From Candidatus Woesearchaeota archaeon (lineage in GTDB: Archaea; Nanobdellota; Nanobdellia; Woesearchaeales; GW2011-AR4), in contig JAGVXS010000063.1 of the NCBI GenBank assembly GCA_018303685.1, positions 1-53,477 of the forward strand: a stretch of DNA of 53,477 nt, given 5' to 3'. The notes beneath the pieces were generated by a model that did no database searches, was not told the origin of the DNA, and worked only from the letters and a program-made list of their open reading frames with translations. Positions 47,958 to 48,047 of the stretch are shown here, piece after piece. The stretch's first letter is position 1, and every line of letters begins with the position of its first letter. A program made the position numbers and the translations under genes.

Positions 47958-48047
47958 AACATTTTTTCCTCACAAAATTTTCCCTCGAAACTTGAGGCAG
48001 CCCACAAGTTTCAGAGCGGATAAATTTTGTAGAGCTGAAAAAATGTT
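47958..48047. ncRNA. Extended near-continuous hairpin; candidate structured RNA or element end
   Basis: Nested perfect arms: AACATTTTTTC/GAAAAAATGTT (11 bp), ACAAAATTT/AAATTTTGT (9 bp), GAAACTTG/CAAGTTTC (8 bp); intervening bases mostly pair with small bulges on 3' arm. Confidence 0.6.

Follow-up and report, generated by a model that had tools for sequence, protein, structure and literature searches.

The question raised by this locus is what a hairpin of about 90 nucleotides is doing between two genes of a 1.13-Mb Woesearchaeota MAG. The window that we analyzed (the whole 53,477-nt stretch) holds the hairpin between an 81-aa gene (47633-47878, minus strand) and a 159-aa gene (plus strand), and a preliminary description had seen in it three nested perfect arms that could form a stable noncoding RNA, a MITE-like element, or a transposition/recombination substrate. 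When we folded the region with RNAfold, the hairpin proved to be real: the three nested arms are present within a single continuous stem, GAACATTTTTTCCTC...GAGCTGAAAAAATGTTA, and the fold reproduced both the CTC/GAG pairing of the spacers and the small bulges on the 3' side. As had been claimed, the stem is well beyond chance, with a minimum free energy for 47940-48070 of -41.1 kcal/mol against -22.0 +/- 3.3 kcal/mol in 200 dinucleotide shuffles (z, -5.73), none of which was as stable. The loop, put at ~10 nt, had to be corrected to 4 free nt, because the apical part AGGCAGCCCA (in most copies AGGCAACCCA) folds into a GG/CC mini-stem. The feature as described was also incomplete, in that the ~180-nt attachment site of which the hairpin is the larger branch starts at 47925 and forms one end of a ~2.2-kb insertion. 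Of the identities originally offered, the recombination substrate is the one that stood. There was no Rfam match at gathering score anywhere in the window to favor a stable noncoding RNA, and a MITE is a poor fit because the sites bound differing cargo with AAC/GTT junctions and an attI-like version of the site adjoins a dedicated recombinase. Rather than standing alone as a noncoding RNA or MITE, the hairpin forms one arm of a recombination site that occurs in dispersed copies.

Other genomic copies and compensatory changes in relatives, whose absence had been named as an argument against a functional element, were both found. A BLAST search recovered a diverged copy on a second contig of the source genome and hairpin matches in 19 of 59 relatives, frequently close to contig ends, as expected of repeats. 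Ten copies, with 36 pairs of which 17 had double changes, were used to build a covariance model, and this located the element in 23 of the 36 genomes of the family and in 53 of 352 genomes of the order Woesearchaeales, representing 38 of 220 genera; these copies are mostly single and scattered, and a search of a plasmid collection gave no match. Across 46 copies, standard pairs fill 95.8% of cells and 30 of the 36 stem pairs have changed on both sides. Double-change cells number 301, compared to 74 expected in shuffles (0 of 500 shuffles were as high), a margin that is large even though an alignment fitted to the covariance model is biased toward the structure, and sliding the partner by one column lowers the pairing to 52 to 59%. 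Conservation of the structure is therefore supported directly. What stays constant across copies is the apical AGGCAACCCA together with the CCCTC/AGAGCTGG bulges; the intervening stem sequence is free to vary. Some copies begin 10 to 20 nt past a stop codon; a rule placing the site right after the 3' ends of genes was dropped, given that the orientation of genes beside the copies is mixed (29 same, 25 opposite). Several copies also show runs of five to seven G beside the structured region (L058 3884-3920, L060 7925-7965, L061 2155-2190), lying directly before the next gene and often as two runs ~30 bp apart (AATCGGGGG).

The extent of the insertion in the window was apparent from its relatives. 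In many of them, the 81-aa gene is followed within about 10 to 60 bp by a match to the window from 50111 onwards, which is the sequence upstream of a Cas4-like nuclease gene (relatives without the insertion include G004, G006, G011, G013, G003, G007, G008, and G015, among others). The window therefore carries ~2.2 kb of extra sequence, whose boundaries are good to ~10 bp since the intergenic flank evolves fast. The parts of the element are listed in Table 1.

Table 1. Parts of the inserted element, in positions of the window.
Feature	Position	Strand	Evidence or remark
Whole inserted element (cassette and flanking attachment sites)	47920..50110	+	Absent at the locus in relatives
Left site, outer arm and R''-like box GATGAAAGTTC-ACATAAC	47925..47942	+	Pairs with 50087-50105 in two-end fold
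Long bulged stem of attC-like site; CCTC/AGAGCTG bulges, AGGCA(A/G)CCCA apical loop	47958..48047	+	Fold and covariation
Left site, second, variable hairpin branch, loop CTTTGATG	48050..48092	+	Predicted folds of window copy and relatives
L'-like box TTAAAAT and left inner arm	48093..48163	+	Pairs with 49919-50072
Cargo gene 1, 159 aa	48265..48744	+	No Pfam match
Cargo gene 2, 68 aa	48778..48984	+	Weak DUF7322 match, below cut-off
Cargo gene 3, 287 aa	48988..49851	+	No Pfam match
Right inner arm with side hairpins	49919..50072	+	Repeated in G004:C14 (93%) and G014:C17 (96%)
Right attachment site, short form CATATAAC-ATA-GTTATGGCGAACTTTCATC, no large hairpin	50076..50105	+	Compare G210 short cores

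Both structured ends carry side hairpins, and the left region pairs with the right (49919-50105) through 52 cross pairs in the fold. The AAAGTTC..TAAC sequence of the left outer arm and R''-like box is common to many copies, and a copy of cargo gene 3 (83% DNA identity over part of its length) adjoins other sites on contig G000:C49. Relative to L009, L010, L012, and L018, the R' box (GTTATATG in these relatives) is deleted in the window copy (TAAAATGGGTGAGGC). Given the loss of this left R' box and of the right hairpin, the window copy, a single displaced cassette, is probably inactive or immobile. In G001:C22 (L106 2940-9143), ~6 kb lie between the halves of a right-arm side hairpin, bounded by a 16-bp inverted repeat, ACGTGTGTGCAGAAAT; this stretch is a possible nested insertion.

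Junctions could be read at a second locus, whose flanks we take, from reading the sequences rather than from a profile search, to be a radical-SAM gene and a metallophosphoesterase gene (SAM-MPE). G017 has an empty site here, TTCGTATAACACAAGTTTTTCACTCACAAAGTTCGCAAAAAACGTGTTATACGAA, which retains one complete hairpin. From the SAM gene as far as GTGTT, a nearly identical sequence is present in G012, G016, G003, and G004, where it then gives way to differing cargo, and where the far side of the cargo is readable (G016 and G004, the latter with its two sides on separate contigs), similarity returns at a TATAAC/GTTATA box. G007 also carries different cargo at this locus, and several further members of the genus have no site there. 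The positions of the junctions are thus directly supported by the empty and occupied sites, and the pattern is what one would expect if cassettes are inserted into a resident site at its G^TT. Within G016:C1 (L096 5516-5750), the right arm of one cassette meets the left site of another at TATAAC, which is a direct cassette-to-cassette junction. The resident SAM-MPE hairpin of G007:C3 lies on the opposite side of the cargo and is inverted relative to the flanking genes (L138 versus L128).

An integron cassette bears two complementary boxes, and an occupied integron site is made up of one box from each neighbor. We compared the six variable bases after the start GTT with the six before the end AAC in 17 cassettes taken from arrays and from loci with both ends visible. 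Cassette starts (GTTNNNNNN) and cassette ends (NNNNNNAAC) pair at 88 of 102 positions, compared to a permuted mean of 58 (P = 5e-5, an approximate value because the list was collected by hand and several cassettes are related). The two boxes of one site match at 59 of 96 positions, about chance (P = 0.16). Inverted ends therefore vary between cassettes yet match inside one cassette, and this directly observed complementarity of start and end, without pairing inside the site, is an integron signature. A generic search for complementary AAC/GTT pairs was too unspecific and was abandoned.

Arrays exist as well. In G210:C6, five sites in direct orientation enclose single genes, one to each interval, and the array ends in a recombinase; the short cores read ATAAC-GAT-GTTAT. 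Two or three direct sites occur in G125, G001, G009, and G281. Other copies bound what is typical mobile cargo: an NgoPII-type restriction enzyme with a C5 methylase and Vsr, an N6/N4 methylase, HNH, MNT/HEPN, and a lipase-like protein. There was no transposase among the cargo examined.

To find a candidate enzyme, we located all tyrosine recombinases (PF00589) of the genus and of 39 further genomes that bear sites, and built a tree from 67 rows. One fully supported clade (16 rows) consists of ~260-aa tyrosine recombinases, whose closest solved structures are XerA 4a8e (1.7e-40) and 5hxy. Eleven of the 16 members share a contig with a site, within 13 kb, and in 11 of 11 the gene is on the strand of the site and downstream of it; the remaining five are on short contigs or close to contig ends, and the source genome encodes its own member on a contig separate from the window (G000:C61:4411-5193). 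Among the 352 genomes, the site occurs in 19 of the 30 that have the clade versus 34 of the 322 that lack it (P = 1.7e-10; outside the own family, P = 9e-8), although both values are approximate because genomes share ancestry. The clade is present in only 19 of the 53 site-bearing genomes, many of which are incomplete. Over the whole tree, clustering of the linked label is moderate (17 of 500 shuffles were as low) because that label takes in several XerA and other genes. Linkage of the sites to the clade was observed directly, as was a conserved small hairpin, NNNNAAC-(A/C)(A/C)C-TATTAAACGC-AGTTTTAATT-GCGTTTAATA, that stands within ~110 bp upstream of 15 of the 16 clade members (16 of 17 rows) but of only 4 of 52 other recombinases in the same test. 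It shows compensatory variants (TATTAAGCGC/GCGCTTAATT and others), the sequence preceding its AAC varies from case to case, and in G125 its R'' agrees with the beginning of the last cassette in 9 of 9 bases. Judged from these sequence features, it would be an attI-like primary site of the kind found in integrons.

Taken at their most probable, these results describe a system resembling an integron, in which the integrase is of the Xer type and the attC-like sites are ornate; the hairpin in the window would be the folded part of one such site. We consider this reading likely. The site would follow the plan NNNNAAC, spacer, stem, one or two structured hairpins, stem, GTTNNNN, with small genes between sites of the same direction. 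Insertion would take place at the AAC/GTT core, so that a captured cassette begins and ends in complementary sequence. The proposed enzyme is the ~260-aa Xer-like recombinase encoded right after the attI-like site; by analogy with IntI, it would bind an extruded single strand through the stem, bulges, and loop rather than through the stem sequence, and exchange it at G^TT with the attI-like site or a resident site. That the clade recombinase is the enzyme, that its substrate is single stranded, and that cassettes move as circles is what we infer, with single-strand recognition and exchange drawn from the covariation and from knowledge of IntI.

Measured against the features of known integrons, the sites have AAC/GTT boxes in the manner of R''/R', an asymmetric spacer, and a covarying, imperfect stem with a variable terminal structure, as in attC; they were judged by these features rather than by a published attC model score, and not all boxes fit RYYYAAC/GTTRRRY. 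Insertion at a GTT core and arrays with direct sites are likewise present, with many copies single. The integrase departs from the IntI family: five representatives among the clade recombinases found with PF00589 scored 186 to 234 against TIGR02249 (IntI), below the cut-off of 265, and the additional domain is missing, IntI4 residues 176-243 having no counterpart (23 residues, compared to ~68 in IntI4). For this reason, we do not count the system among integrons but treat it as a variant with an integron's way of working. Whether it amounts to a second kind of integron, with a Xer-derived recombinase that lacks the IntI domain and ornate bulged-hairpin sites recognized by structure and spread through Woesearchaeales, seems to us evenly balanced.

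Scattered single copies with mixed neighbor orientation are unlike typical integron arrays, and together with the pairing of the two ends of the window element and a copy in G001:C22 that has no cargo where the window has cargo, they could instead suggest a transposon-like element with side hairpins in its long terminal inverted repeats, mobilized by some DDE or HUH transposase, whose scattered copies are cargo-carrying MITE-like derivatives. A transposon-like history is conceivable because the cassette ends do resemble such repeats. Our own first idea, a MITE or REP-like repeat, was set aside given the empty sites and the cassette-specific ends, and these weigh against a transposon too: the G017 empty site keeps one complete hairpin, and the ends agree within but not between cassettes. 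Despite the inverted ends, no target duplication was recognized at the window's empty site, where the flank differs in nearly every relative and base precision is not attainable. With cargo free of transposases and an attI-like site beside a dedicated tyrosine recombinase, we regard a transposon as unlikely.

XerA had been our first assumption for the enzyme and was placed behind the ~260-aa clade once the tree was built. Under that alternative, the sites would be dif-like and hijacked by mobile cassettes, with the ~260-aa clade a passenger. XerA-type genes are found in most of the site-bearing genomes, lie 0.5 to 6 kb from a same-strand site in G008, G016, G142, and G025 (L063, L081, L284, and L289), and PaXerA is reported to bind stem-looped att sites (PMC8371274), but the linkage, the order-wide association, and the attI-like site, which is rare elsewhere, belong to the ~260-aa clade, making XerA a decidedly improbable choice. 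Another enzyme, be it XerA or one from a different clade, could nonetheless serve the sites, and because the recombinase at the end of the G210 array belongs to a clade other than the ~260-aa one, more than one recombinase lineage may use them. The strong covariation cannot separate RNA from single-stranded DNA, and the copies just past stop codons would suit a structured noncoding RNA or terminator that was spread by recombination and selected for its RNA structure. Such an RNA would leave the cargo boundaries and the recombinase linkage unexplained, and with both orientations toward neighboring genes and nothing matched in Rfam, we hold it to be very improbable.

The integron-like reading can be set beside several known systems. 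IntI/attC integrons have been reported in 75 archaeal MAGs, including Nanoarchaeota (Sci Adv 2022, PMC9668308), in a survey that counts 539 attCs and whose archaeal IntIs carry the additional domain (PMC9668308). In the papers that we searched, no Xer-type integron is described for Woesearchaeota, which does not prove that none exists. As in bacterial and archaeal IntI integrons, cassettes with accessory and defense cargo lie between same-strand structured sites with R''/R'-type AAC/GTT boxes, the cassette start complements the end, and the recombinase gene adjoins an attI-like site; the scattered copies without a recombinase resemble integron CALINs. Unlike in those integrons, the recombinase gene is codirectional with the sites, the enzyme has no additional domain and falls under the IntI cut-off, the sites are longer and have, besides a bulged hairpin that covaries, a second one, and the cassettes have long inverted arms and are often single and scattered. 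The recombinase is a relative of archaeal XerA, and the short core ATAAC-NNN-GTTAT is an inverted repeat as in dif; however, the clade is separate from XerA, and the site is structured, multicopy, and bounds cargo, whereas archaeal dif is present as a single copy and consists of two 11-nt inverted repeats plus a 6-nt spacer (PMC8371274). The proposed reaction has a precedent in a Xer-type enzyme acting on a hairpin site. In CTX-phi-type phage integration, Xer acts on a folded single strand; this differs in that a phage integrates at dif and neither cassettes nor a dedicated recombinase take part.

No natural machinery for capturing genes is better known than the integron, whose integrases are seen as relatives of Xer that acquired an IntI-specific domain. 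If the reading is true, DPANN archaea would possess a Xer-like recombinase that has an attI-like site of its own and is accompanied by folded cassette sites, which would point to an intermediate or a parallel origin. It would also account for the way in which very small archaeal genomes obtain and trade genes for restriction-modification, toxin-antitoxin systems, and membrane proteins.

The surroundings of the window insertion are themselves variable. The interval that separates the 81-aa gene from the Cas4-like nuclease gene (47880-50165) is an insertion hotspot, with differing inserts of another kind than the window's in G010, G016, G012, G002, G001, and G019. Farther upstream, a ~135-bp intergenic stretch (47481-47615) downstream of the TyrRS gene's 5' end has matches at dozens of positions across the genus, several of them in its own genome, and is apparently a second dispersed repeat family unrelated to the hairpin.
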